Source: a virus. From it: a DNA stretch of 21,712 nucleotides. Location: the IMG/VR virus record IMGVR_UViG_3300030419_002038, positions 1-21,712 of that record, one strand, 5' to 3'. How positions within the stretch are numbered: the stretch's first letter is position 1; each line of letters starts with the position of its first letter. The notes under the pieces were generated by a model. The model had not been told where the DNA came from, did not search any database, and was given only the letters and a program-made list of their open reading frames with translations. A program made the translations under genes and the position numbers. Positions 1,744-21,712 of this stretch are shown here, one piece after another.

Positions 1744-1951
1744 AAACGATATAACTGGTCAAGCCAAGAAAATGGGAAGGAACGCAGGACTTACTTCTGA
1801 TGGTAAATTAGATAGTGTTCATTCTGTAAGTGGAACTGAGTTAAAAGAAGGTACCATTGTTGTAAGGACTATGAATCCTGACTTACCAGACTCAAAGGCT
1901 TTATCAGGAACTGATAGACATAAAAACGCATCAATAAAAAATAATTATTAA
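1733..1951 (+). CDS. Small hydrophilic protein of unknown function, overlapping nrdJ
   Basis: A 72-residue protein that I do not recognise. It starts inside the last codons of the reductase gene (11-base overlap) and has a well-placed Shine-Dalgarno sequence, GGAG, at about 1724, which itself encodes part of the reductase's redox-active tail. This arrangement supports translational coupling and argues that it is a real gene. The sequence is rich in Ser, Gly, Lys, Asp and Asn, has no cysteine, no membrane segment and no motif I can name. Its stop codon overlaps the stop of the convergent tail hub gene. A role linked to nucleotide metabolism is only guilt by association. Confidence 0.6.
   Translation: MTSENDITGQAKKMGRNAGLTSDGKLDSVHSVSGTELKEGTIVVRTMNPDLPDSKALSGTDRHKNASIKNNY
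1936..1941 (-). terminator. Candidate T-run terminator after the minus-strand tail operon
   Basis: On the minus strand, six T residues lie about 6 bases past the stop of the hub gene, inside the 3' end of the convergent 72-residue gene. No stem precedes them. The mirrored placement around the overlapping stops suggests bidirectional hairpin-free termination, as is known for archaea, but this is inference from a short motif. Confidence 0.3.
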
Positions 1952-2988
1952 CTTTTTTGAAGATAGTCTCTTATTTGTGGAGCATTCTTATTCAATTTAA
2001 GTGAACAAGTTACTCTTTTACCAAAAGCTATTGTTTTACCAACTACTCTATGGTTACCAGAAATATCATCATCTGGAACATTTAATCTTATAATACTTCC
2101 TATTCCTATATCGTGTCCTTTAGACACTGTTATTTTAATTTCATCTTTACGTTGTTGTTCTAACAATACTTGTTGTATTGCTACATTCCTTAATTCAGCG
2201 CGAGACAATTTAGTTTTTTTACCTACTTTAATACTAGTTACTACATCACCAGTAGGTCTATTAGTATATTGAAAAGTACCATCTGTATAAGTCGCCGTAT
2301 TAACAGGAGTTCTTCTAGTAAAACTATAACCCTGTAAACCATCAGCATAAGAAAATGTCATTGCTGGTGTACTACTTAAAAGTTTGTCTTTTTTTATAAC
2401 TAATTGTGGCGCGTCATAATGTTCTATTATATCAAAAAAATAAGGTAAAGGATTTAAGAAATCATCGTCATCAACAGCAGTCTTTAAAATTTTCTTTGCT
2501 AAACCATATACTGATTGACTTTGTCTTTGACCTGTCATAGAAACTGTAGGATATGTATCAGTTAACATATCTAGCCCTAATCTAGTCTCGTTATTGTTCA
2601 CTTTATTAGATATAAAGGAATAAAGAAAGGCACCTAACGTATAGCCGTCATAATTTTGATTGTCTGTTAATTCAACTATATGTCCGTTTTTACCACTAAT
2701 CAATATACGTGGGTCCATGGCGGTTATATTCGTCATTGAAGCATCAGGTTTTATTTGTGTTATTATACCTGAAAAGAAAGGAGCAGAATCTATACTCCCA
2801 TTATTTAAATAAAGTTTAACATTTTTATCCATTAAAGAATGGTGTTGTATATCTGGATTAGAAATTTTTAATTTTAAACTATTTACTTGATTATTACCTG
2901 TAAAGGTAACACTTCCTGAAATTTCATCTAGTATTTCATTATTATTAATATAAACTCTAGGCTGAAGATACGTATTGGCTTCTACCAT
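1948..2988 (-). CDS. Tail hub-like (late control gene D-like) protein
   Basis: 346 residues, last gene of the structural block. The N-terminal half (about residues 8-85) reads as a hub-type beta-barrel start: a defined coordinate-like strand (PRVYINNNEI), then SGSVTFTG, LKLKISNP and PFFSGIITQIK. The C-terminal half has KGHDIGIGSIIRLNVPDDD, followed by a strand-rich end (HRVVGKTIAFGKRV), typical of proteins of the phage late control D/gp27 hub fold that cap the tail tube and hold the fibres. No lysozyme or peptidase domain is fused to it. The start overlaps the preceding gene by 32 bases but is supported by the Shine-Dalgarno sequence AGGTGG about 8 bases upstream. The assignment rests on pattern and gene position; another baseplate component is possible. 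Confidence 0.65.
   Translation of the reverse strand: MVEANTYLQPRVYINNNEILDEISGSVTFTGNNQVNSLKLKISNPDIQHHSLMDKNVKLYLNNGSIDSAPFFSGIITQIKPDASMTNITAMDPRILISGKNGHIVELTDNQNYDGYTLGAFLYSFISNKVNNNETRLGLDMLTDTYPTVSMTGQRQSQSVYGLAKKILKTAVDDDDFLNPLPYFFDIIEHYDAPQLVIKKDKLLSSTPAMTFSYADGLQGYSFTRRTPVNTATYTDGTFQYTNRPTGDVVTSIKVGKKTKLSRAELRNVAIQQVLLEQQRKDEIKITVSKGHDIGIGSIIRLNVPDDDISGNHRVVGKTIAFGKRVTCSLKLNKNAPQIRDYLQKS
1953..1958 (+). terminator. Candidate T-run terminator after the + strand genes
   Basis: Six T residues begin two bases after the stop codon of the 72-residue gene, with no hairpin in front. Archaeal RNA polymerase can terminate on such oligo-T tracts alone; a bacterial intrinsic terminator would need a stem. 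A short T-run in AT-rich DNA may be chance, but it is mirrored on the other strand. Confidence 0.3.
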
Positions 2989-5900
2989 CTACTTCACCAC
3001 CTATAGATATTTTATCTGATAATAAATTATAAGAACTGTCTAATTCAATTATATGTGATATTTGCATCTTAATTCCATATTTAGCGTGTTGTTTGCCAAC
3101 AGGATGGTCTTCTGACATGCCTGTTATCACTCCAAAGAAACGTGTCATTTCTCCACTCTTATGTGATACGTCTAAAAACACAGGAGTAGCTTGTTGTTGA
3201 TACTGTTTAAGTTTCTTTCTGTTACCTTTAGCGTCTGTGTCTCCTAAGTCTACACCACCAAACGTAACTGTTCCTCCTTTAGCTCCTAGTTTTCTAATTT
3301 CTGTCATACCAAACCTATCTGTGATTGATGTAAAATTAGTATCTCTGTTAAAAGATATAGCTTGTGCTATAGCTATACTGTTCAATGATACGTGGTGTGG
3401 GTCTACCACTTTAATTAATTGTGAATGTGAGTTGCTAAATGGCCAAATGTTAGTTACATTGACTTTAGCTGGTGCAGTTGCTGAACTTTCATTAACTGTT
3501 ATACCTATTAATATACCATAAGCTGAAAAATCCCATAATGTATCAGGGTCGTGACCTGTTCGCGGTGAGGCTCCTTCAGTCGTCCCATTTGTTGCTTCAG
3601 TACTTGCTGCATCAGCTGGACCACCCCAACCTCCTGAAGCTAATATTTCTGTACCATCTGGGTCACTTCTTGTAATACCATTAGAAGTTACACTTTCCCA
3701 ATCATTAGGTATTATAAATTCAATACTTCCTGAAGTTTTAAGTCCTTTAGTATTATCTATTATTTTAAGAGGTTTCCATCCATCACTATTAGAATAGTAA
3801 GCTGTTATATCTATATCAGCTGGAGTATCGCTATCTGCATAAGTATGTGCTGTTCTAAAGTATACTCTATCAAATTGGTCTGTTTTACAAAGAAATAACC
3901 AATTCATTGGATGGTTAGTCATAGCCTTAGGGTCTGATGTATCACCTTGAAATCTTAAATCAAATTCAGTTTCTCCTGAAGTTTCAGCACCACCTATCAT
4001 TGTTCCTGTAGTTCTATATAGTGTAGATAAATTACGCCAAACAGTTTTTGGTGTTGATGTTGTTTGAGAATTAGAAAATGCCATGTATCCTCTTGTTTCT
4101 AAAGAACTTGGTATATATTGTGTAGTAGTAGTATATTGGTCATCATCAAAATGTTCTACAAAAGACCTTCTATTAGATATATCTCCAGAACCTGTAACTT
4201 TAGTAAAATTATCTCCCACTTGAACTCTACATAAACGTGAAAAATCATAATATCTACCAAAGGAATCTTTAACAAAACCTTCTGCACCATGAGTATAGCC
4301 AGTAGTCCTTGTAGTCAAAGATGTACTTGGTTTACCTAAATCTGCATGAAACTCATCAGATATATTACCTAAATTAGATGACACAGAAGCTTGTGATTGT
4401 ATTGTAGCATTATTATTACTATCTAAATCAAAATAATATGAAGATAATGATAAATTTGACTCTCTAGTAAAACTTTCAGAGGCATCTAATGTTACTCTGT
4501 AACTATTATCATTAACATCTATTATAGGATTACCATTTGATAATATACAAACAGTTTCGTCTGCATCTACATCAATAAATGTATTATGTGCTCCTCGTGT
4601 AGCATTAAAGACTTTGATATATATTCTTTCGTCGTCTGATAGTTTATCAACATTTAATAATTCAGCTCTTAATAATTCACCTGCATAATCAGTTTCTGTA
4701 GCTATACTACTACCCTGAACTGCTACATAATCAGTAGTATCAGCACCGTCTTTTAAATGGTTAATATCACTTACGGTAGGGTCTAGTTCATTACCATATG
4801 TTTTAGATTCTATTGTAACTAAACCGTCAGTCGGATTAGCCCAAGTAAACCTATCGTCAAATACATGTGAAGTAGAAGAAAGTCTTCCTGTGTTATATAA
4901 TTTTCTAGCAAAACCTTTATTAGTTCTCATTCCAGTTCCACCATCATATGTAGAATTAACTCCACCTGTAAAATCATCACCTGTTAATGCACTGTCGTCA
5001 AGTCTAACTCTTAATGTGTCTGCAAATGAACCTCCACCGGGTAAATCTACACTAGGGGCCTCAGTTGTGCTTCCACTAACATCGAAATAAATTAAATATG
5101 CTAAACCACCACTGTAAATTATAATATAATCACCAATCAAATCATCAGCATCTCCATCAGTAGGGCCACCACCAGCGTCACCTGTAAAGAATTGAATATT
5201 AGTTTTCTCGTAAGCATTAGAACCATTTCTATAATTTCCATAAGGTACTGCTTTTGTAGCCAGCTCTGATTCACTTCCTGTTGGAGAACCACCACTAGTA
5301 GAGTTATCTATACTAGTATCTGCGGTTGCTACATCATCACCATGTAAGGTATACTCTCTTATTGCTCTGTCCATTCGCCCCGCAACTGTAAGTTTCACCA
5401 AACCTGAAGTTCCTAAACTGTTACTTGATTTAGTATAGGCATATAATAATGGTCCTTGAGATGTAGTATACTTATCTATATTTTTATTATCTATACCTGC
5501 AAATATTCTTTTTCTATCTGCTTTTAAAACACCAACTGGTGGATTATGAGCTGGAATAAAATGTGGTATTTTATCTTTTCCATCCTTTTCTATCTGTACT
5601 ATAGATGAGCCTGTATTACCTGCTGATAGAGTTTTATTCTCTAACGTAGAAAAGTCATTATTAGAAGAGTTATTTGTATACCATTTAGATAAATAACCTT
5701 CTGGACTTTTAACTCTAATTAAAGGCCAAAATGTTTTAGCCTCTGTATAAACGTGTTCTGTTATTGCGAAAAATGATGGTTTATCCATCTTTATAATTTG
5801 AATGTTTCTTTTTTCTGGTGAATTATCTTCACCGTCGTCCCAGTCTATGTGGAATTCACTTACTGGTTCGTTTGAGTCAATTCTATAATAATATTTATTA

Positions 5901-9000: not shown

Positions 9001-10938
9001 TAGTGCTTTACCATCTTCTGCATCAGTTATTACTAAATTACAACCTTGTGAATTAGGGTCTATAACAAAATTAAAATCTAACCATTTATCAGATAAATCT
9101 GCATCGTCTGCCATATATTTAAAATCTGTTGGAGTGGTCGCTATTCCTACTTTATCTCCAACTGGACATGATAACCAACTTAAATAAGATGTGCCGTCTG
9201 AACCAGCACTTGTAGCAGCAGCTCCTAATCTATTAATTGTAATTACACCGTGGTCGTTTGCTAAAAAGACTCCATAAAAATCCTTACTATTGTTGTCTCT
9301 GTTCAACGGTACAGTATCTTCCATATTGGGATGGTGTCTCTTTAAGAAAGTATAAAATGTATCGTCTTGACTCTTTGTCCCTGCTGTAGTTGATGTTGAA
9401 TCTATAGTAGTACCTGTATGCATTCCCGGTGGATACTCACTAAAACATATTGCTATTCCTCTTGTAAATATTCTAGACAAAGTAACTTGATTTGCTGCGT
9501 GGTCATTAGCTACAAGACCATCAGTATGGGTAAGTGTAACATCATATTTATCTGAATAAACTGTTTCCACTTCTCCATCATCATCTAAGTCGTGTGGCAT
9601 ATGACCAAAAGTATTGTCTCTTTTAAAATATCTTGATTCGCAAGGTGCTATCTTTTTAAGATTTAACTTTGCTGTTACTACGGTTCCTATTTTATCGGCG
9701 TCTGATGGGTTAGTTTGATTTTGCCATCTTTTTGGAACTGGAATCTTTTTAACTATATAACATTCCTGTCTTTGATGTGTATGACTACTTGTACTATCTG
9801 CTGGATAATAGATACTACTTCTTCTCCAACCATCTTGATTAGTCATAGCTGGCCAAAATGTATGCATTTTAACAGATTGTCCACCTTCATGAGCATTTTC
9901 ACTACTAAAAGAAACTCTTCCCCAAGCTATTTCCTTTGTACCTCCAGAACTACTTAATTCACTCATAGTTCTTGCCTCTTTAACATCTAAAAGTGTTGAA
10001 TTGTTAGGTGTGACTACATTAGACCTAGTAACTTTATAAGGACCATCAGTAGTAGGAATAGTATTCCTATCTAAATATTTTACTAGTTTTCTTTTATCAC
10101 CTTTTAGTTTAAAAGCACCGCGTTGAGTTTTACCGGTTAATCCTGATTTAGATTCTTGTGTAACAAATCGTGCAGAACCTCCTTTGAAACCCGGGAAACC
10201 AAACTTACCGGTTAAGGCATATCCACCCTTACTTCTACTGCGATATATTTTAACTATATCTTCACCGTTGTGTGTTTCACCGAAATGTTTTTTATAGTCA
10301 CTCTTTTTAAGCTTCCTTCTAAATAATTTACTTTCTTTTTTACCCCATTGATAACAATTCTTATGTGCATCATTTAGTGTTAAATAAGCTTCCTTCTGTA
10401 CTACTAATTGTCCTTGTTCTACTGTAGTAGTGGTTTCTTCTCCTACTCCGTCAAATATCTCGTTGTAATATTGAGAAGGTGGTTCAGTTGTAAAATAAGT
10501 AGAAAATGCTAATATATCTTCATTTACTATCATTGTAGAGCCATCTGAGGCTCCTCCTTCTACATCAATCTTACTATCTATCTTAAATGCTTTAATACCA
10601 ACACCTTCACCACCGCTAGTTACCCCGCTAGTTGGATTAGTAAAATCATCATTTTTTATTTTGGCTGAAAAATATAAACCTGAAAGTTCTCCTGCGCCAA
10701 AAGGAGGTTTATCAGTAAAAGTAGTGTCAAATTGAGAATATCTAGGAGACATTCCTCCTGTAATAGTATGATAATCGTCAGCGTTGTCATATAAATCTGT
10801 ATAAGTTCCGTGATAGCTAGCGGATTTAGATGGTACAGTACGTCTGTAAAAATGATTACCTTCTAGTTTTAAATCTGCACTCTTACTAGTTCTAAATGCT
10901 GTAAGGGCTGCTCTCATTGGGTCTTTCTTTATTGCCAT
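6037..10938 (-). CDS. Giant distal tail/adhesion protein with C-terminal LamG-like domain
   Basis: 1633 residues, the largest protein here, directly downstream of the tape measure gene. A concanavalin/LamG-like jelly roll lies at about residues 1340-1567: it starts with AVIHLPMNE, continues with YCLEFDGNDDYVTI and AKLYINGNLEDL, and ends with FDGKIEELVIYKKALYPF, the classical order of LamG_3-type domains that bind carbohydrates or glycoproteins. The first ~300 residues contain a Lys/Gly-rich patch (about 215-300), and the rest is rich in Asp, Asn, Thr and Gly, consistent with many beta domains. No membrane segment or enzymatic motif was seen. Its start is well supported: AGGAGGA lies 5 bases before the ATG, which shares one base with the tape measure stop (TAATG). 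The position suggests the distal tail or central fibre, with a receptor-binding role; that role is inferred. Confidence 0.75.
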   Translation of the reverse strand: MAIKKDPMRAALTAFRTSKSADLKLEGNHFYRRTVPSKSASYHGTYTDLYDNADDYHTITGGMSPRYSQFDTTFTDKPPFGAGELSGLYFSAKIKNDDFTNPTSGVTSGGEGVGIKAFKIDSKIDVEGGASDGSTMIVNEDILAFSTYFTTEPPSQYYNEIFDGVGEETTTTVEQGQLVVQKEAYLTLNDAHKNCYQWGKKESKLFRRKLKKSDYKKHFGETHNGEDIVKIYRSRSKGGYALTGKFGFPGFKGGSARFVTQESKSGLTGKTQRGAFKLKGDKRKLVKYLDRNTIPTTDGPYKVTRSNVVTPNNSTLLDVKEARTMSELSSSGGTKEIAWGRVSFSSENAHEGGQSVKMHTFWPAMTNQDGWRRSSIYYPADSTSSHTHQRQECYIVKKIPVPKRWQNQTNPSDADKIGTVVTAKLNLKKIAPCESRYFKRDNTFGHMPHDLDDDGEVETVYSDKYDVTLTHTDGLVANDHAANQVTLSRIFTRGIAICFSEYPPGMHTGTTIDSTSTTAGTKSQDDTFYTFLKRHHPNMEDTVPLNRDNNSKDFYGVFLANDHGVITINRLGAAATSAGSDGTSYLSWLSCPVGDKVGIATTPTDFKYMADDADLSDKWLDFNFVIDPNSQGCNLVITDAEDGKALYRVAISNSTSLSGSTADNLAGNFPRFMSIWNVNTGNPNSGIGANDKDHGPFADETEAVRNKYKGFMDTGMVFESCVDVDDLSSHPSTPRRKTIFTATAGVQANIIFSDRRTGATDGNLEKYWAFPVGSEGYIATSQDAGSLLYCYSATGEQNVNQSMYDRMSFSAEGQTVNQGEPLLTSASVPVDGGIAPGVDAETIIYIDSIKCHNISPEIENATIVNANNHAGDLTIPATHKTFDVSYSNVADWNGADDIGPAQKEAWSYLSFGFNNEDDFEGAVKFFLLSGFATKNPLITTSIMQSTNSDNSYLRGGYTGAITGGAETLGGFTGTATFDNDEGGPSDGSDTTGRGFIFNASGEGAEVGTKVETANYIDGFSQKGVFTLNFTKRTDKNVASRENPYVSARVELIQGGNFQEAVVDNADIFNLNPNEEYILYRDGSDYSNTKYLTGLKVVEKDDDVITFNKSLKNADSGATIISDMGNLYISPKRFWIIFAILNKSDANTYLPERSYDSIVGISGVETPGATFNEYKFTDSSYYKYQRNMEPFADVESNDVRLDVDMGFGVVDEDNTEAGMAGILHLETSADLDGADIDNQRIDISGIIDEMKPEYNSTLPILLTPLSATNESIIEIYAEEASNEYDKPYLLAEFRDEIPVIEDFTVEPNQENPFFPHYRWESPDDDLWYGFLSIDTKQIYNQYDNAVIHLPMNEESRHAKTPASAPVEKIQGTSNVISGALKNVEGLSGYCLEFDGNDDYVTINHGAGSDPTADCTKEMTVLIHIIADSASDERYVISQTTAGNPDEKFLIKINSSNQVEATVFYDASGNYVSLKSASIIATDGQTPTAIMLVVDSELDSGNAKLYINGNLEDLTGQATTTGSTDNWKVGQSINGGNSTILVGNSAVGATNGFDGKIEELVIYKKALYPFNGKTTDLVVRKPFVELDDSSSSASLPIVSKIFIKDYHNIRGKTSEQVATAPAVTYRKAAFRMDNS

Positions 10939-13900
10939 TAAATTCCTCCTATATCATTCTGTCTTCTTAATGCTTCTGGTAGAACTACTGCGACACGGTC
11001 AGCAAAGTCTTCTGCGTCATTAGTTACTATGTCACCGCCTATATTTAAAGTTATGCCTCCACCACTAAGCATATTTTGTGTCTTTGGTATAATAGTTTCA
11101 CCGGGTTCTACCATTACACTCTGATGTCTATTACCTAGACCTCCACTATCCATAATTGGTAAATATCCTGTATCTGCGGTAGGACTATGTGGATTTGTAG
11201 CAGTTGTAGGCATATCTACAGCAGGTGCTTTCATCATATCTTGCATAACTACATTTAATGCTGCAAAACCTGCAATAGTAGCTACAATTAATCCCGCCAT
11301 GGTTATAAAAGCCATTGGACCTGATAAAGTTGATAATACACCAGCATTATATATTTGTATAGCAAAAGCTAATCCAAAGAAAGCTCCAGTTAAACCACCT
11401 ATAACCGCTGCCATTGTTCTAGAACCATCTGCAAATTTTCGTGTTAAGTATATCATACCGAATAAACCTATAGATATACCTGCTTGAGATAGTGCTAGTT
11501 TAGAATAGGCCGCTCCTAAACTTTCCATAGAAAACTCTAATGCTCCATTTGCCCATATTGACTCAAGAGCTTCTAACTGTTCTGCATCCATTAAATCTAA
11601 TCTCATTGCCATAAGCATATTGTTCATAGGAAGAAGTCCGTTCATTAATTTCATAATTAAAGCAGATTCTAAAAACAACGGTCCTAACTTACCTAATAAT
11701 TTAATAGCTGCTGACATAGGAACTGTCATCATTTGTATAAGTCCTGTAAGATTAGTTCCTTCCTCTGACATTTGCATCATTGAATCTGTTATTGCCTGAA
11801 CTAATTTATAAAATTCATGTAATGCTGTTATCACAAATTCTCTAATCATTTCACCCATAGGTGTTAAACCAACAACTACACCTTCTTCGACAATAACAAA
11901 CATTCCTTCTAATTGGTCTGTAATTTGGTGTAGTACCATTGAAAATTCATTCATATACCCGTGTTGTTTACCAACTTCATCTGATAATAAAAATGGAGTT
12001 TGTAAAGCGTTTTTAATCCTTTCTATACTCATAGCTAAAGATTGCTGCTGGATGTCAGCCATCTCAGTTGCTGCACCTGCTGAATTTTGTAAATCATTAA
12101 CCGCATGTTCGAATTCATCAGCATTTTGTACTAAATGAACAAATGCAGTAGCACCACGAACATTTAAATCTTCAAGTAATGTCGTCATTAAATCTACATC
12201 AGAAGCCATTGGACCCATAGCAACTTGGAATTCCTTTGCTATTTCTGTTAATTGTTTAAAAGTACCATCAGTATTAGTAATCTCTACACCTAATTTAGCG
12301 AAAGCAGCTGTGTTATCGTCTGCATGTTGTGCAAACTCAGCTAATGCCTGTCTTAAACCACGACCTGCAATACCTGCTTCTAAAGCACGGTTAGTTAATA
12401 TTTCTAAAGAACCTAATAATTGGTCAACACTTTGTCCTGTAGAAGTAAAGAAAGGCATAGCGAACTTAACAGCACTTGCTAAATCTTGATATTCAATCAA
12501 AGATTTATTAATAGCATGTGCAAATTTATCTGTAAGTTCAGCAGAATCACTCATTTCTAATCCAAAACCAAATATGGTCTGAGTTGTTAACTTAGCGATA
12601 GTCTCATGGTCACCTTGTACAGCCATAGATAATTTTAAAGTATTGTTTAATACTTCCATAGATTCTTCTGCGTTTAAACCCGCAGAAGCTAAGGTATATA
12701 AACCTTGAGAAGCGTTCTGCATAGAAACACCATATTGATTACCAAAATTAACTATTTCATCAGATAATCCAAAAAGAGTTTCTTGATTTGTCTGAAAAAT
12801 AGATTGTGCATTCATTAATTCTTGTTCAAAGGCTTGGAAAGATTGACGAACTCCATCTAATTTATTAAAAAAGGCAGTAGTTGCTGCTGTCGATATTGCC
12901 AAAGCACCTACTAACGTTGTTTTAAAAGAATTAGCCATTGCTTCAATCTGTTGGTTGAATTCTTTAGCTAATCTTTGACGACGTTTTAATAATTCTACAG
13001 TTTTCTGTCGTATTTTATTATTCTCAGTCTCGCGCTTTTTATATTCACCCATTGCCTCATTTTCATCTTTTCTCTGTTTAGAACTTATAGCGCTTAAGTC
13101 TCTATCGACAGTTAATTGTGAATTTTTTGAATCTTTTAAATCATCTACTCTCTTTTTAGAAAAGGATAATTCATCATTTAAGTCTTTAACAGATTTTGTT
13201 TCTTGCTCTGTTAACATATCTAACCTTTTAATTTCTTTAGTTAGATTTTCACCTTCTCTAACAGAGCGACTTAGACCTAATTCTAGTTCTTTTATTTCTT
13301 TTTTAGCATCTTTTGCGTGTTTTTTACGCTTATCAGGTAATTTATCATAGAGTTTTTTCTTTATTTCTAATTCTTTTTCTAAATGATATCTAATCCTATC
13401 CTCTATTTCTTTTAAAAGTTTTTTCTGCTCTTTTTGTTCTTCTAAATAACCTAGATTTTTAAGTCTTAAATCTCGTTCTTTACTCAATGATTTAACTATA
13501 TTTTCTTGGTCCTGAAGCATTTCTTGGGTAACAGCAATTCCTGCTTTACGTTTTTCGAAATCTCCACCCATAGTGGCTTCAACATCTTCACCCATTGTCT
13601 CAGCAGTAGTATCAATAGTAATACCACGTTCTTCCATGTAAGCTTTAAAATCAGCAAAATTAGCTTTCATGGCTTGTAATTCTTCGGCGTATTCCTTGCC
13701 TATTTCAGGCATTTCAAAATAATCACCTTTCAAACTTTCTGCTGGAGCTTGTTTTGCAAGTGCTTGAGCTGTCTTTAATGCTCCTTGTGATGCAGCATCC
13801 GCTGTTTCACCAGCTTGTTTAATATCGTCTTCTAATTGTCTTAAAGAATCATGACTACGCTTATCCATAGCGTCTGCTAACTTTTTACCAGACTTTTCTA

Positions 13901-14021
13901 ACTCTAAATTAGCTTCAACACCAGCTCTTGCAAATGCACCAGTCTTCGCTATACCTTCGCCGAAACCATCTGTTACGACTTTTATTGAGATTTTTTCTTG
14001 ATAAGGGTTTATACCAACCAT
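10938..14021 (-). CDS. Tail tape measure protein
   Basis: 1027 residues; sets the tail length and is threaded through the tail tube. Order of parts: a short N-terminal segment; a highly charged coiled-coil region rich in Lys and Glu (about 160-365); a TP901-type core (about 366-690) with the alternating helices typical of tape measures, e.g. QELMNAQSIF, GLYTLASAGLNAEESM and AGIAGRGLRQALAEF; hydrophobic, possibly membrane-spanning helices near 840-927; and a C-terminal part with VEPGETIIPK and a Gly-rich end, common in this family. Using about 0.15 nm per residue, the tail would be roughly 150 nm long, which fits a long non-contractile tail. It follows the two chaperone-like genes with a 4-base gap; the Shine-Dalgarno sequence here is weak (GAGTAG). 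No peptidase or lysozyme domain is visible. Confidence 0.93.
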   Translation of the reverse strand: MVGINPYQEKISIKVVTDGFGEGIAKTGAFARAGVEANLELEKSGKKLADAMDKRSHDSLRQLEDDIKQAGETADAASQGALKTAQALAKQAPAESLKGDYFEMPEIGKEYAEELQAMKANFADFKAYMEERGITIDTTAETMGEDVEATMGGDFEKRKAGIAVTQEMLQDQENIVKSLSKERDLRLKNLGYLEEQKEQKKLLKEIEDRIRYHLEKELEIKKKLYDKLPDKRKKHAKDAKKEIKELELGLSRSVREGENLTKEIKRLDMLTEQETKSVKDLNDELSFSKKRVDDLKDSKNSQLTVDRDLSAISSKQRKDENEAMGEYKKRETENNKIRQKTVELLKRRQRLAKEFNQQIEAMANSFKTTLVGALAISTAATTAFFNKLDGVRQSFQAFEQELMNAQSIFQTNQETLFGLSDEIVNFGNQYGVSMQNASQGLYTLASAGLNAEESMEVLNNTLKLSMAVQGDHETIAKLTTQTIFGFGLEMSDSAELTDKFAHAINKSLIEYQDLASAVKFAMPFFTSTGQSVDQLLGSLEILTNRALEAGIAGRGLRQALAEFAQHADDNTAAFAKLGVEITNTDGTFKQLTEIAKEFQVAMGPMASDVDLMTTLLEDLNVRGATAFVHLVQNADEFEHAVNDLQNSAGAATEMADIQQQSLAMSIERIKNALQTPFLLSDEVGKQHGYMNEFSMVLHQITDQLEGMFVIVEEGVVVGLTPMGEMIREFVITALHEFYKLVQAITDSMMQMSEEGTNLTGLIQMMTVPMSAAIKLLGKLGPLFLESALIMKLMNGLLPMNNMLMAMRLDLMDAEQLEALESIWANGALEFSMESLGAAYSKLALSQAGISIGLFGMIYLTRKFADGSRTMAAVIGGLTGAFFGLAFAIQIYNAGVLSTLSGPMAFITMAGLIVATIAGFAALNVVMQDMMKAPAVDMPTTATNPHSPTADTGYLPIMDSGGLGNRHQSVMVEPGETIIPKTQNMLSGGGITLNIGGDIVTNDAEDFADRVAVVLPEALRRQNDIGGI

Positions 14022-14732: not shown

Positions 14733-14933
14733 TTAATCGTATACTTTGTCGTATGAACCGTCGTTGTATACTAATAATTTATAGTCTATTCCTAGTTTTT
14801 CTTTAATTATTTTTTTACCACTGTTTAGTTCTGGTTCCGGTTCCGGTTCTGGTTCCGGTTCTGGTTCTGGTTCAGGAGTAGGCTCCTCTTCTATTGGAGC
14901 CTCTTCCTCTACCTTTTTTGACTTTTTAGCCAT
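14733..14933 (-). CDS. Small (Pro-Glu)8 repeat protein
   Basis: 66 residues. A lysine/glutamate N-terminus (MAKKSKKVEEEAPIEEE) leads into eight uninterrupted Pro-Glu pairs, then a compact C-terminal part (KKIIKEKLGIDYKLLVYNDG) that could form a small helix-strand unit. Pro-Glu runs form stiff, extended rods, as in the TonB spacer, so the protein may act as a rigid tether with a folded C-terminal anchor. It sits 10 bases after the second major tail protein and has AGGTGA about 7 bases upstream of its ATG. It may decorate the tail tube or belong to the chaperone set that follows; neither is shown by the sequence. I recognise no family. Confidence 0.65.
   Translation of the reverse strand: MAKKSKKVEEEAPIEEEPTPEPEPEPEPEPEPEPELNSGKKIIKEKLGIDYKLLVYNDGSYDKVYD
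14829..14876. repeat. Hexanucleotide repeat coding for (Pro-Glu)8
   Basis: Eight consecutive 6-base units of the form CCN GAA on the minus strand (CCA, CCG or CCT followed by an invariant GAA). All Glu codons are identical while the Pro codon varies at its third base. Such a tract can change length by replication slippage in whole units without breaking the reading frame. Confidence 0.9.
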
Positions 14934-14943
14934 ATTAATTCAC

Positions 14944-15558
14944 CTATAGTTCTGTTGCACCAGTTACTGTAGTGTATGCTGTTGTTGCAATTTTTGGGTC
15001 AACGTGGGAAACAAATTCCAATGTTTCTTCAGTTACACCATCTGCATTCAAAGTAACAGAATGTGATGTTATTGTAGCGTTTCTTACTGTAAATATTTCT
15101 GTACTATCTTTTAACTGAACAAATATTCTATATCCATAATTTACAGTTGGTTTTTCTAGACCGGTATGACTGTTAGTTGTGCTACCTGCTGTAACATTAC
15201 CACCTATACCCCATCTACCTTTAACACCATCACCATCTCCATTAAAAATAATATCCCAGACATCGTCTAATTTTTTCCTTGTGAGAGTTATGGTCGTTTC
15301 TTTCTTAATTTCAGCCTTTAAAGGAGTTCTTTGTCCTATATAAGCAATATCTTCGTCTGTTGCTCCTATACCAAGGTCTACAGAAGTTAAATCTGTAACT
15401 TTAGCATCTGCAACCATTCCTTCACTCTGTTGTCTTGCAAAACAAGTTCCGCCACCTGCTGCTGTAGAATGAATTTGCTTACTTGAGTTAACATATACAT
15501 GATTGTTTACTTCGGCGTTAAGATAAACCTTTACATCCCTTCCAAGATAATAAACCAT
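14944..15558 (-). CDS. Major tail (tube) protein, paralogue 2
   Basis: 204 residues. Closely related to the gene just upstream: both begin YxLGRDVKV and share a central block (VDLxIGATDED..Y.GQRT.LKAEIKKET..TLTRKK.D.VW) with 39 of 51 identical residues, plus a second block, YGYR....KD..E.F..RNA, ending with TEET.EF.S.VDP. The strand-rich make-up, the size, and a position shortly before chaperone and tape measure genes fit a tail tube protein. The N-terminal region between about residues 14 and 55 and the segment around 105-130 are quite different from the paralogue. GGAGA lies about 12 bases upstream of the start. The two proteins may form a mixed tube, or one may be a minor or decorating version; the sequence alone does not decide. 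Confidence 0.8.
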   Translation of the reverse strand: MVYYLGRDVKVYLNAEVNNHVYVNSSKQIHSTAAGGGTCFARQQSEGMVADAKVTDLTSVDLGIGATDEDIAYIGQRTPLKAEIKKETTITLTRKKLDDVWDIIFNGDGDGVKGRWGIGGNVTAGSTTNSHTGLEKPTVNYGYRIFVQLKDSTEIFTVRNATITSHSVTLNADGVTEETLEFVSHVDPKIATTAYTTVTGATEL

Positions 15559-15562
15559 AGTA

Positions 15563-16252
15563 TCAGAGGTCTCCTGTGCCTGTTGCGGCTATCATAGCGG
15601 TTGCGTCTGTAGCTACCATAATTGGGTCTACATAAGACATAAACTCCATAGTTTCTTCAGTTATACCATCGGGGTTAAGTGTAACACCGTGAGATTGAAT
15701 ACAAGCGTTGCGTAAGATAAATACTTCAGAAGTATCTTTCATCTTGATATAGACTCTGTATCCGTATCCTATGTCGTCTGGTTGTCCTGCTAGATTAGCT
15801 CTAATACCAGTTCCGGCTTCATTAATACCCCAACGGGCATTATTAAAAACCTCTTCCCAAACTCTGTCTCCCTTTTTACGGGTGAGTGTACAGGTTGTTT
15901 CTTTCTTAATTTCTGCTTTCAATGTAGTTCTTTGACCAAAATAGGTTACATCTTCATCAGTTGCACCTATTGACAAATCTACTCCAGTTAAGTCACCAAC
16001 TTCATTAGAATATGTCGGTGTACCCGTAGTTCCTGCCGTCTGTGAATTGAAAACACTATCTGAACCTGAATCATTACATGCTAAAGGTCCAGCGAAAAGT
16101 GTATCTGCTGCTACATAGTCATCTGCACTAGTTGCACCAGATTCAACGTCAAGAGCTTCAAGGGCATCACTATCTGCTTCTAATCCAATACCCACATCAG
16201 CGTCTTCAGTGGTAATTGCGACTTTAACATCTCGTCCTAGGAAATATGCCAT
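15563..16252 (-). CDS. Major tail (tube) protein, paralogue 1
   Basis: 229 residues, first gene after the promoter-bearing gap. It shares YFLGRDVKV, the central GATDED..Y.GQRT..KAEIKKET block and the TEETMEFMSYVDP end with the next gene. It differs mainly by an Asp/Ala/Ser-rich N-terminal insertion (about residues 14-85), likely a surface loop or small extra domain. It has the best translation start signal of this region (AGGAGAAA, 7 bases before ATG) and its own promoter-like sequence, as expected for the most abundant tail protein. No sheath gene is seen next to it, so a non-contractile tail is more likely. An alternative is that one of the pair is a highly diverged sheath-like protein, but both are too small for that. 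Confidence 0.82.
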   Translation of the reverse strand: MAYFLGRDVKVAITTEDADVGIGLEADSDALEALDVESGATSADDYVAADTLFAGPLACNDSGSDSVFNSQTAGTTGTPTYSNEVGDLTGVDLSIGATDEDVTYFGQRTTLKAEIKKETTCTLTRKKGDRVWEEVFNNARWGINEAGTGIRANLAGQPDDIGYGYRVYIKMKDTSEVFILRNACIQSHGVTLNPDGITEETMEFMSYVDPIMVATDATAMIAATGTGDL

Positions 16253-16265
16253 TTTAATTTCTCCT

Positions 16266-16281
16266 GCGTATCGTCATACGC
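16266..16281 (-). promoter_or_regulatory. Leader hairpin just before the Shine-Dalgarno sequence of major tail protein 1
   Basis: GCGTAT GACG ATACGC on the minus strand: a perfect 6-bp stem with a four-base loop, ending directly at the AGGAG ribosome binding site. It would be in the mRNA leader if transcription starts near 16285. It could protect the 5' end or tune initiation. An extra GCGTAT copy upstream (16294-16299) could compete for the same partner strand. Confidence 0.45.
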
Positions 16282-16283
16282 TA

Positions 16284-16297
16284 GTATAAAGTTATAC
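16284..16297. repeat. Second inverted repeat in the promoter gap
   Basis: GTATAA AG TTATAC, a perfect 6-base inverted repeat with a two-base centre, lies between the TATA-like box and the leader hairpin, where transcription is expected to start. This position suits an operator for a dimeric regulator. It is short and AT-rich, so chance remains possible. Confidence 0.35.
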
Positions 16298-16307
16298 GCC
16301 ACGGTAG

Positions 16308-16321
16308 TATATAAAGGTTTC
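16308..16321 (-). promoter_or_regulatory. Archaeal-type BRE/TATA promoter candidate for the major tail protein genes
   Basis: On the minus strand the sequence reads GAAACC directly followed by TTTATATA, matching the archaeal BRE (purine-rich GAAA) and TATA box. The box centre is about 59 bases before the ATG at 16252; with the usual ~25-base spacing, transcription would start near 16285, giving a leader of ~33 bases. A second, weaker box (CTTTATAC, 16291-16298) follows. No good -35 element was seen for a bacterial reading, although TATACT resembles a -10 box. Confidence 0.5.
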
Positions 16322-16392
16322 CCCATAAGATGCCATATGGCTCTACTTATCTACCATTTAACTCTCTATTAAGATATATTATATATATTAAG

Positions 16393-18291
16393 CTAATCGA
16401 CTTCTGGTTCTATAGTTATTTCTTCTATACCGTAATAAGGCATAGCCCAGAAAGAATAACCGGGCTGAACGTTTCCACCTGAAAGTTGGCTAGCTCTGGT
16501 TTCTTTAAATTGATTAAGGTGGCGAATAAATTGATTAGTTGAGCCACCCGGCGCATTTCTTTGAAAATTTTGTAATCCTGCATGTAAAGCCCCTGAAGAA
16601 CCATTTGCTACTCTATCTAACATTACATTTACAACGTGTGCCATTCTTGCATCTAGACTTGCTTCTGGTACATAAATACCTGCACTAAATCCTCTGGCAC
16701 CTTGACTAGTAGCTGTTTGAATAGTAAAACCACCTACATTAGCAATCGGTTGCATCTTACCAAGAGCCTTTCTTACTAAATGTCCAGACATTTGGTCATT
16801 CATAATTAAAGCACTACTTTTATGGAGAGTTCCTCCTAATTCTTGTAATAATCCATGTGTCGCAGGACCATCAAAAACTTTTACATGTTTGTCTTTAAGT
16901 TTTTTATATAAAAACTTTCTAGCACCTGACCTATATTGTCTTAGTAATACTCCTGCTGTAACATGTGCAGGAGTGTGTGTTAACGTAAATGTATCCCATA
17001 AACCATTCACTGTATTTGACCAGTTACCAATGGAGTGCATTAGATGTTTAGCTACACTGTTAGTCATTTTACCTGCTGAAGCACCACCTCTTGCCAGTCT
17101 ATCAGCTTCTCTTTTTGACATACCTGCTAATCGTCTGGCTGTTATAGAAGCCCCACCACCCCGCATTGGTTTTAAATGTTTTTTTGGGTCTGGGTTCTTT
17201 AGAGATTGTCTAGCAACGTCGTGTTGAGTACCCGGACCTCCAAACCCAGTTGGTGCTCTCATATGTTCTGCTGTTAAATCTCTTTCAGAAACACCATGAG
17301 CTTCAGCTGCCATACGTTTAATAGTTCCTAAATGGGGGTTCCATTTTGAAGTAATTTCATTATTATAATAATTTTTCATATCTTCTATAATTTTATCCCG
17401 ACTTTTAGGTATATCTTCAGTTCTTTGCCAAATAGGACCTCCAGTTAAACTGTGATGGTTTGTCCATTTTTCTCCGTCCGCAGTAGCTTTAGATTCTGTA
17501 ACATCTATAGCTATAATTTTATTTCCTATTTTTATATAAGCATCAACAGGTTGTGTTAAACCTATTGTATCTCTATGACTTTCTAATGCTTCAATACCAT
17601 CTTTATGAGAAGCTTGGTCTACTAATATAGCTGTTTGTTCTTCAGAAGCCCATTGAGAAGGGTGTGCTCCTTTTCTTAATCTTAATTCTCTTCCAGAATC
17701 TGCATCTCTTCCACCTATACTTGTTATTCTATTACTAATCTGTGTATTAATTTCTCTTAAATATTGACCAGTATAAGCAGCACTATTTCTTTTAAATTCA
17801 TTGTGTATATCTTTTAATACTCTGACTTGAGCATTATAATCATTATTTCTACCTGTAGCAGTAGGATAATCTTGATTTCCCCAAAAATTTTCTTGAAGCA
17901 TACTTGATACTGGTGCACCACCCATTGTAGCAGACTTCATCATATTTTTAAAACCTTCCACTGAGTTCCAAGCAGAAGCAAAAGCTTCAGATTCGATTGC
18001 TTCATCAAATTCTTTTTTACCTAGGTGTCTAAGTAACATATGTGCTCTAGAATACCAAGTTCTTTTACTTCTTATTGGGTGTCTAGCTTCAAAATTAGGT
18101 TGTTGATGATAATTAAATCCTATGACATTAACTAAACCATCAGCTTCATTCCATGAAAGATTTCCACCTAATGTATGAATTCCACTCTCACCACCTGCAA
18201 AACCTACTACAGAAGGATAAAATCCTGCTTTAATACCACTCTTAATTGTTGTTCTTAATTCAGATGTTGGTTTATTAAATGCTGTGCTCAT
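16393..18291 (-). CDS. Unrecognised 632-residue neck/tail-region protein
   Basis: Located between the tail-completion candidate (ATGA overlap of 4 bases) and the promoter in front of the major tail proteins. I recognise no family. The N-terminal ~170 residues are rich in aromatic and charged residues; residues 248-268 form two hydrophobic strands with P-V-D (248-250) and I-D-V-T-E-S-K (262-268), an arrangement like the PD...ExK core of PD-(D/E)XK nucleases (candidate D250, D263, E266, K268). Residues 375-410 are Gly/Arg/Ala-rich (RGGGASITARRLAG), a possible flexible nucleic-acid-binding linker. The rest is mixed helix and strand, with a C-terminal region from about 435 that contains many His and Gly. 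Tail gene clusters seldom carry such a long gene at this point. It might be a virion-packaged enzyme or a multi-domain neck protein; the nuclease idea rests on a short motif only. Confidence 0.6.
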   Translation of the reverse strand: MSTAFNKPTSELRTTIKSGIKAGFYPSVVGFAGGESGIHTLGGNLSWNEADGLVNVIGFNYHQQPNFEARHPIRSKRTWYSRAHMLLRHLGKKEFDEAIESEAFASAWNSVEGFKNMMKSATMGGAPVSSMLQENFWGNQDYPTATGRNNDYNAQVRVLKDIHNEFKRNSAAYTGQYLREINTQISNRITSIGGRDADSGRELRLRKGAHPSQWASEEQTAILVDQASHKDGIEALESHRDTIGLTQPVDAYIKIGNKIIAIDVTESKATADGEKWTNHHSLTGGPIWQRTEDIPKSRDKIIEDMKNYYNNEITSKWNPHLGTIKRMAAEAHGVSERDLTAEHMRAPTGFGGPGTQHDVARQSLKNPDPKKHLKPMRGGGASITARRLAGMSKREADRLARGGASAGKMTNSVAKHLMHSIGNWSNTVNGLWDTFTLTHTPAHVTAGVLLRQYRSGARKFLYKKLKDKHVKVFDGPATHGLLQELGGTLHKSSALIMNDQMSGHLVRKALGKMQPIANVGGFTIQTATSQGARGFSAGIYVPEASLDARMAHVVNVMLDRVANGSSGALHAGLQNFQRNAPGGSTNQFIRHLNQFKETRASQLSGGNVQPGYSFWAMPYYGIEEITIEPEVD

Positions 18292-20481: not shown

Positions 20482-21712
20482 TCATGCTGCTATAGACTCC
20501 GTTATATGCCAATAGTTTCCTGACCACATAGCTATACATAATTTTGCTTGAACGTTTCCTGCGTTTGTAGCAGTACATATATCAAAAGTTTGATTACTAC
20601 CTGATTCGTCAACCTTGGCATTAATTTTGACAGTAGCCGTATACATAGCTGAAAGGTGAGGGTTGAATCCACCCACAGCTAAACACATTATATAATAAAT
20701 TTTACCTTGATTTGAATCCGCTGATGGCGTAGGTAAAGTAACAGTAGTTGAACCAGTTGCTTGCCTAATCTCGGCGTTATATTGAACAATTAAACTATGC
20801 GCATCAGTAGTAGCTGTAGCATCACTACTTACATCTTCCGGTGTATGTATAAGTGTACCAGTATCAAATGTAGTATTATCGTTTAATGTAATAGTTGCTC
20901 CATCGTATGTTAAGTTTGCTTCTGCTGTTGCAGTGCCGTCTCCATCGGCAGTTAGAACTCGGTTAGCTGCATCATTTGCTATTGAAACTGCACCGGGTGG
21001 ACCTGCTGGACCACCGGGACCAGTTGGACCTGTAGGACCTGTACCACCTGCTCCACCCTTTTGTCCTTTTGTACCATCATCACCATCATCACCATCAGAA
21101 CCACCGGGACCAGTTGGACCTGTAGGACCTGTTGGACCTGCTGGACCTGTTGGACCTGCTGTAGTAGATGGAGCACCTTTCTGTCCTTTAGCGGCAACAC
21201 CACCTTCACCACCTTCACCACCTGCACCGGGTCCTTTAACACCCTTTTGACCCTTTTGTCCTGTACCTGATGGGTTAACACCACCTTTAGCACCTTTAGC
21301 TGCCTTTGTACCTTTCTGTCCTTTAGTACCTGCCGGAGAAGTAGTGGACTTTGCACTTTTTACTCCTTTTTGTCCGGTGTGACTAGCAGCAGTTGGACCT
21401 AATCCACCTTTAGCACCTTTAGCTGCCTTTGTACCTTTCTGTCCTTTAGTACCTCCCGGAGAAGTAGTGGACTTTGCACTTTTTGCTCCTTTTTCTCCGG
21501 TGTGACTAGCAGCAGTTGGACCTAATCCACCTTTAGCACCTTTAGTTGCCTTTGTACCTTTTTGTCCTTTAGTACCTCCCGAAGAACTAGTGGACTTTGC
21601 ACCTTTAACACCTTTAACGTCACCGGGATGTGCGACTCCACCTGCACCACCATCACCTTTAGCACCTTTAGTTGCCTTTGTACCTTTTTGTCCTTTAGTA
21701 AATTGAGTTGAA
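20482..21712 (-). CDS. Collagen-like fibre protein, N-terminal part beyond the window
   Basis: At least 410 residues, open from the right edge; the ATG at 20688 is internal. From the edge to about 21250 there are Lys/Ala/Thr-rich G-x-y repeats (GTKGQKGTKATKGAKG type) in ~41-residue units with breaks. From about 21181 to 20998 there is near-perfect collagen-like sequence (GPTGPTGPTGPGG, GDDGDDGTKGQKG, GPPGA). After that comes a globular C-terminal part starting SIANDAANRVLTADGDGTA followed by NLTYDG, a form often found in fibre proteins of marine phages, and ending in strands with IYYIMCLAVGG and MWSGNYWHI. Such a protein forms trimers: a triple-helical shaft with a C-terminal head. Its place at the head end of the operon suggests a head fibre or decorating fibre rather than a tail fibre. 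The repeat part would tolerate unit gain or loss. Confidence 0.85.
   Translation of the reverse strand, partial: STQFTKGQKGTKATKGAKGDGGAGGVAHPGDVKGVKGAKSTSSSGGTKGQKGTKATKGAKGGLGPTAASHTGEKGAKSAKSTTSPGGTKGQKGTKAAKGAKGGLGPTAASHTGQKGVKSAKSTTSPAGTKGQKGTKAAKGAKGGVNPSGTGQKGQKGVKGPGAGGEGGEGGVAAKGQKGAPSTTAGPTGPAGPTGPTGPTGPGGSDGDDGDDGTKGQKGGAGGTGPTGPTGPGGPAGPPGAVSIANDAANRVLTADGDGTATAEANLTYDGATITLNDNTTFDTGTLIHTPEDVSSDATATTDAHSLIVQYNAEIRQATGSTTVTLPTPSADSNQGKIYYIMCLAVGGFNPHLSAMYTATVKINAKVDESGSNQTFDICTATNAGNVQAKLCIAMWSGNYWHITESIAA
21281..21712. repeat. 123-bp tandem repeats in the collagen-like gene
   Basis: Unit starts (low coordinate) are at 21281, 21404, 21527 and 21653, so the spacing is 123, 123 and 126 bases, i.e. 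41 or 42 codons. Copies 21281-21403 and 21404-21526 differ at only three positions, suggesting recent duplication. The third copy is similar only over its first ~80 bases, and the fourth is cut by the window edge. Confidence 0.85.

Follow-up and report, generated by a model that had tools for sequence, protein, structure and literature searches.

A conserved archaeal-type promoter core and a small predicted leader hairpin before the tail-tube gene of uncharacterised tailed viruses

The sequence GAAACC followed by TTTATATA at positions 16321-16308, on the minus strand 5' of the tail-tube gene, is best explained as a whole as a working archaeal promoter core that heads the tail unit and would start transcription at about 16285, a reading in which we place high confidence. 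The window, i.e., the whole stretch of DNA analysed, is a 21,712-base IMG/VR contig (record G000); a class II RNR gene lies on its plus strand, and its minus strand carries a structural block. A promoter of archaeal type is shared by dozens of related viruses from the environment, and this uncharacterised group of tailed viruses therefore very probably infects archaea. The sequence of the element, its conservation, geometry, and genome-wide recurrence, as well as the covariation of a hairpin located downstream, were computed directly. The features referred to below are the following.

16316-16321, minus strand: predicted BRE, GAAACC; the invariant AA at 16319-16318 lies at -34/-33 from the predicted start
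16308-16315, minus strand: predicted TATA box, TTTATATA, at -30 to -23; the element recurs genome-wide in relatives
16295-16296, minus strand: predicted proximal promoter element, TA, at -11/-10; T in 96% and A in 93% of 46 relatives
16285, minus strand: predicted transcription start (A), placed 30 bases past the first T of the TATA box
16266-16281, minus strand: predicted 5'-terminal hairpin, GCGTAT-GACG-ATACGC; 6-bp stem, -8.3 kcal/mol, z -2.0; the stem covaries
16261-16265, minus strand: Shine-Dalgarno sequence, AGGAG, directly 3' of the hairpin; conserved in relatives
15563-16252, minus strand: tail tube protein 1, 229 aa, first in the unit; predicted fold similar to phage tail tubes and Hcp (Z about 7-8.2)
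14944-15558, minus strand: tail tube protein 2, 204 aa, tandem paralogue; related by BLASTP to the same family in all relatives
10938-14021, minus strand: tape measure protein, downstream in the tail unit; PF10145 (E 1.6e-26) and phrog_1533 (E 3e-45)

On the basis of its tape measure and tail-tube genes, together with the HK97 capsid, portal, and terminase found in the relatives, the window was assigned to Caudoviricetes, probably with a non-contractile tail. The model of tail tube protein 1 was of moderate quality (pLDDT 67), and its best 50 fold matches were almost all tube-type proteins; the protein belongs to a family that is conserved in the relatives. The tandem tail-tube paralogues head the unit, and tandem copies are present in many relatives too. 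The 632-aa gene directly upstream of the promoter (16393-18291) had only a weak match, in record G438 of locus L119 (25.9% over 263 aa), and a pattern search yielded no IMG/VR relative of it. Positions 20482-21711 encode a collagen-like (GXX) repeat protein, which is cut by the window edge.

The site had been described in an earlier note on this DNA as a BRE/TATA-like element, and the analysis confirmed it on the minus strand and found it conserved in relatives. GAAACCTTTATATA occurs as a single copy in the whole record, at 16321-16308 of the minus strand. When the window was scanned with a matrix built from the relatives, the window being excluded, this site ranked first with 18.9 bits, and the runner-up (12.8 bits) was antisense and intragenic; the maxima in 60 shuffles had a mean of 6.4 and an sd of 3.6, the top value being 18.7. 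The element lies in a 140-base gap (16253-16392), the sole large gap in the structural block, the remaining genes of which overlap or stand 1-33 bases apart, provided that the 66-aa ORF at 14733-14933 is real; on that proviso, the description of this gap as the only sizeable one in the structural operon was borne out. The element was also said to stand 59 bases before the start of the tail protein. It does lie in that leader, but the distance from the first T of the TATA box to the ATG (start codon at 16252) is 63 bases, with 55 bases between the end of the box and the ATG, and the value of 59 fits the middle of the box only. The suggested transcript start near 16285 agrees with the predicted, alignment-based position, which was chosen because of a sharp edge at 28-31 bases in the distances to genes and the positions of BRE, TATA, and TA.

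The decisive evidence for the element is its conservation at the same site in all relatives with upstream DNA. A search with the tail protein gave 35 sequence-related viral contigs, and 78 loci were recovered by alignment; the element was present in all 56 distinct leaders for which the record extends upstream of the first tail-tube gene. In the non-redundant set of 46 of these leaders (<75% identical), the sequence (A)GC[AG]WAA[GC]C-TTTATATA preceded the same gene. The information content was near zero upstream of -9 relative to the first T, high from -9 to +10, where the footprint reads A-G-C-R-W-A-A-G/C-C-TTTATATA-C/G-T-A, low in the weakly conserved stretch that follows, high again at the TA at +19/+20, and weaker thereafter. 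The AA was invariant in the set at -4/-3 relative to the first T. A start 30 bases past the first T would put the AA at -34/-33 and the TA at -11/-10, in agreement with the published positions of the archaeal BRE (about -33) and proximal element (about -10) (PMC5316973; PMC8707807), and would centre the TATA octamer at about -26/-27. The sequence AGCRWAAGCTTTATATA upstream of the tail-tube gene provides a searchable promoter signature from which start sites can be predicted base by base.

The same promoter recurs elsewhere in the family. Across 0.80 Mb of sequence from 22 related records, 45 copies of AAGCTTTATATA were counted, compared with none of its reversed control; GAAASCTTTATATA was present in 13 of 13 further records, mostly of the window's own clade, with 0 control matches. 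A de novo search upstream of 222 transcription-unit starts returned TTTATATA as the top 8-mer (48 sense vs 7 antisense; Fisher 1.6e-9). In line with a check suggested in the earlier note, the element recurs in the relatives upstream of other first genes, and in many family members it does so at the same genes: the portal gene, RNR, two genes close to the terminase, several replication genes, and the tail-tube gene, the last in 16 of 16 mapped records. The gene families fam21 and fam19 are among those with recurrent promoters. The mapped promoters at the portal and tail-tube genes mean that the head genes and the tail genes each have their own promoter. Tandem arrays of TGAAAAAA[CG]CTTTATATAG promoters were also observed (G019, 16326-18151; G012, 33703-35555; equivalents in G013 and G017), some of these promoters lying 28-30 bases ahead of small genes (~78 aa).

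From this organisation we infer that the host TBP would bind TTTATATA and the host TFB the A-rich BRE upstream of it, and that the archaeal RNA polymerase of the host would start about 30 bases past the first T, probably at 16285. The resulting transcript would carry the two tail-tube genes first and run on through the tape measure and distal tail genes, so that the tail module would have a transcript of its own, separate from that of the head unit, the portal promoter of which was detected in the relatives. Similar core promoters are known from the Thermococcus onnurineus transcriptome (PMC5316973), with a TATA box centred at about -27, an A-rich BRE at about -33, an A/T-rich element at about -10, and leaderless genes beside Shine-Dalgarno-led ones; however, AGCRWAAGCTTTATATA is far more uniform than the cellular average and is known here from comparison alone. 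In halovirus HF2 (PMC8707807), archaeal core promoters (TATA at -26, BRE at -33 to -37) are likewise repeated across a tailed-virus genome, but the HF2 intergenic repeats span 29-58 bp and are experimentally proven, whereas the promoters described here share the core only.

Two other readings of the element were weighed. An AT-rich match that arose in the spacer by chance could draw on the frequency of TTTATATA in the window, where the octamer alone is unremarkable (8 copies vs 5 of the reversed control). The footprint, which 46 non-redundant relatives share at this position despite diverged flanks, refutes this reading; the ratio of 45 to 0 between the element and the reversed control in related records also speaks against it, and the probability left to it is negligible. 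It is also highly improbable that the virus infects bacteria and that TTTATATA serves as a -10 element for a sigma factor of the phage or its host, comparable with the T4 late promoter TATAAATA. The octamer is AT-rich, and the virus is tailed and has an RNR related to those of bacteriophages; however, a bacterial reading is at odds with the conserved A-rich element upstream and the TA 19-20 bases downstream, and with the distances from the first T to the start codon in the family, which have a sharp lower edge at 28-30 bases. A clear Shine-Dalgarno sequence was found in 7 of 31 starts at 25-35 bases and in 40 of 55 starts at 51-150 bases (p 1e-5), so that most short-distance starts are without one, as would be expected of leaderless archaeal genes. 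No consensus sigma-70 pair (TTGACA-TATAAT) was found upstream of the units, and sigma-70-like sites showed no excess in the region, being fewer than in shuffles. The Sigma70_r2 domain was absent from 12 records, although the same search was positive in 10 bacterial controls. A sigma-70 promoter was rejected on the absence of the -35/-10 hexamers, and a T4-like late promoter on the absence of a sigma domain and incompatible spacing.

Sequence searches in cellular genomes also argue against the bacterial reading. Archaea make up about 5% of the species in GTDB R220. Among one genome per species (84,980 species), exact GSGAAASCTTTATATACT was found in 42 stretches, 18 of which (43%) were archaeal (p ~1e-12 against an expected share of 5%). 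Among the archaeal copies, 14 of 18 lay outside ORFs of at least 100 aa, compared with 7 of the 24 bacterial ones. The ratio of AAGCTTTATATA to its control was 59:3 in 17 archaea and 13:10 in 9 bacteria, ratios somewhat inflated by the choice of genomes for a related pattern. In addition, all 36 phage-record matches of the replication protein phrog_12057, which was found in relatives rather than in the window itself, were haloarchaeal tailed viruses. On the grounds of footprint geometry, recurrence, the leaderless edge, the absence of sigma-70 signals, the archaeal enrichment, and phrog_12057, an archaeal host of the family is very likely.

The earlier note had named sigma-70-type promoters and host matches to bacteria as signs that would speak against its reading. 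Neither appeared: there were no such promoters and no encoded sigma factor, and no link to a bacterial host was found. The RNR of the window was nearest to diverse bacteriophage RNRs at <50% identity and was set aside as uninformative about the host; PolB and TerL showed weak similarity to bacteriophages. As for the suggestion of an unusual archaeal siphovirus, the archaeal host is supported, phrog_12057 of the relatives having matched haloarchaeal viruses only, whereas the placement in a host lineage is not. Dozens of unplaced tailed-virus contigs can thereby be assigned, with the probability given above, to archaea largely through cis-regulatory sequence and without CRISPR spacers.

A finding beyond the earlier observation is that the tail mRNA of the window's clade seems to begin with a small conserved hairpin, which suggests that a structural mRNA of the virus has a structured 5' leader. 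In this clade, the predicted mRNA has the hairpin within a few bases of its start, and the type with a GACG loop abuts the Shine-Dalgarno sequence. Variants of this type in relatives include GCATTC-GACG-GAATGC, ACGTTC-GACG-GAACGT, and GCGTAG-GACG-CTACGC. In the GACG stems, every one of the 30 cells pairs, with changes on both sides in 4 of 6 pairs, and sliding the partner abolishes the pairing; the count of covariation was restricted to the GACG type because a joint MAFFT alignment of both hairpin types was misaligned. Support from single-sequence folding was modest (z -1.25 to -2.7). The GACG sequence occurs 3,189 times in the examined records and has a perfect 6-bp stem in 9 cases, 9 of 9 at the tail-tube gene, and the ATCGCGA sequence occurs 34 times and has such stems in 6 cases, 6 of 6 at the tail-tube gene, both hairpin counts including duplicates because some contigs are covered by overlapping loci. 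On the tail-protein tree, relatives with one loop type are interspersed with those carrying the other, a pattern suggestive of exchange or convergence. An Rfam search of the leader gave no family match, and a limited literature search returned nothing relevant on leader hairpins of archaeal viruses or on promoters of Poseidoniales viruses.

The hairpin most likely would protect the 5' end of the mRNA and/or keep open or regulate access to the ribosome-binding site. A DNA operator, i.e., an inverted repeat bound by a regulator instead of an RNA structure, seems unlikely: the repeat does lie in the initially transcribed region, and a sister clade has the perfect palindrome GTCTAGAC there instead, but the halves co-vary in 4 of 6 pairs around a fixed GACG loop, which is the reverse of an operator pattern, and this loop type abuts the Shine-Dalgarno sequence. 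A stronger contender, although we hold it at well under even chances, is that the hairpin serves as a translational operator to which a viral protein such as the tail tube protein binds, and not as a passive 5' stabiliser. Two fixed loops (GACG and ATCGCGA) on varying stems, the position flush with or near the Shine-Dalgarno sequence and confined to the tail-tube gene, and the interspersed loop types would all suit such an operator; on the other side, the independent lineages are few, and a stabiliser would equally sit at the 5' end. A wider proposal is offered tentatively and is rather doubtful as a whole: an undescribed family of archaeal tailed viruses in which the tail-tube mRNA carries a dedicated RNA element, either one of the two fixed-loop hairpins or, in the sister clade, a repeat with the GTCTAGAC palindrome, that would serve as an operator controlling translation of the most abundant tail protein.

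The sister clade without such a hairpin has a conserved GAGTGNARTG stretch and the GTCTAGAC palindrome before the Shine-Dalgarno sequence. In about 42 leaders of relatives (e.g., L025 and L013), GAGTGNARTGT stands at the predicted start and the palindrome ~30 bases before the ATG. The leaders of L008, L011, L017, and L023 (131-132 bases) contain a conserved mini-ORF of 14 codons (MVYTHNK..GGEF) that has a Shine-Dalgarno sequence of its own; its TAA stop overlaps the tail-tube ATG, which suggests translational coupling.

No close relative of the family was found in an archaeal genome with the tail-tube and portal searches: the tail-tube protein had no relative in GTDB genomes, nor in 389 genomes belonging to the same phylum as a DHVE2 archaeon, and the portal profile gave distant matches only, in two archaeal phyla. 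With the haloarchaeal tailed viruses (isolates from Halorubrum, Haloarcula, and Haloferax), the family shares the phrog_12057 replication protein at 21-22% identity, but its tail-tube and capsid proteins had no match in the phage collection. Like Magrovirales (Aoguangviridae and Apasviridae; viruses of Poseidoniales), these viruses are environmental and tailed, encode PolB, and have oppositely oriented structural and replication modules. The Aoguangviridae are described as encoding a replisome with PolB, MCM, PCNA, and a clamp loader (PMC10768690). By contrast, TFB, MCM, and PCNA were not found in the relatives studied here (MCM and PCNA in 9 records, possibly incomplete), and the longest record is 81 kb; membership in Magrovirales was unsupported. 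Further genes were noticed in some relatives. A CobS/CobT-like pair of AAA and VWA genes (L058:259-1437 and 1803-3917; also in G008 and G437) is found in relatives with a B12-dependent RNR, and a squalene/phytoene synthase gene (L058:6448-7053 in record G019; PF00494, E 2e-25) is a possible auxiliary gene of lipid or carotenoid metabolism.
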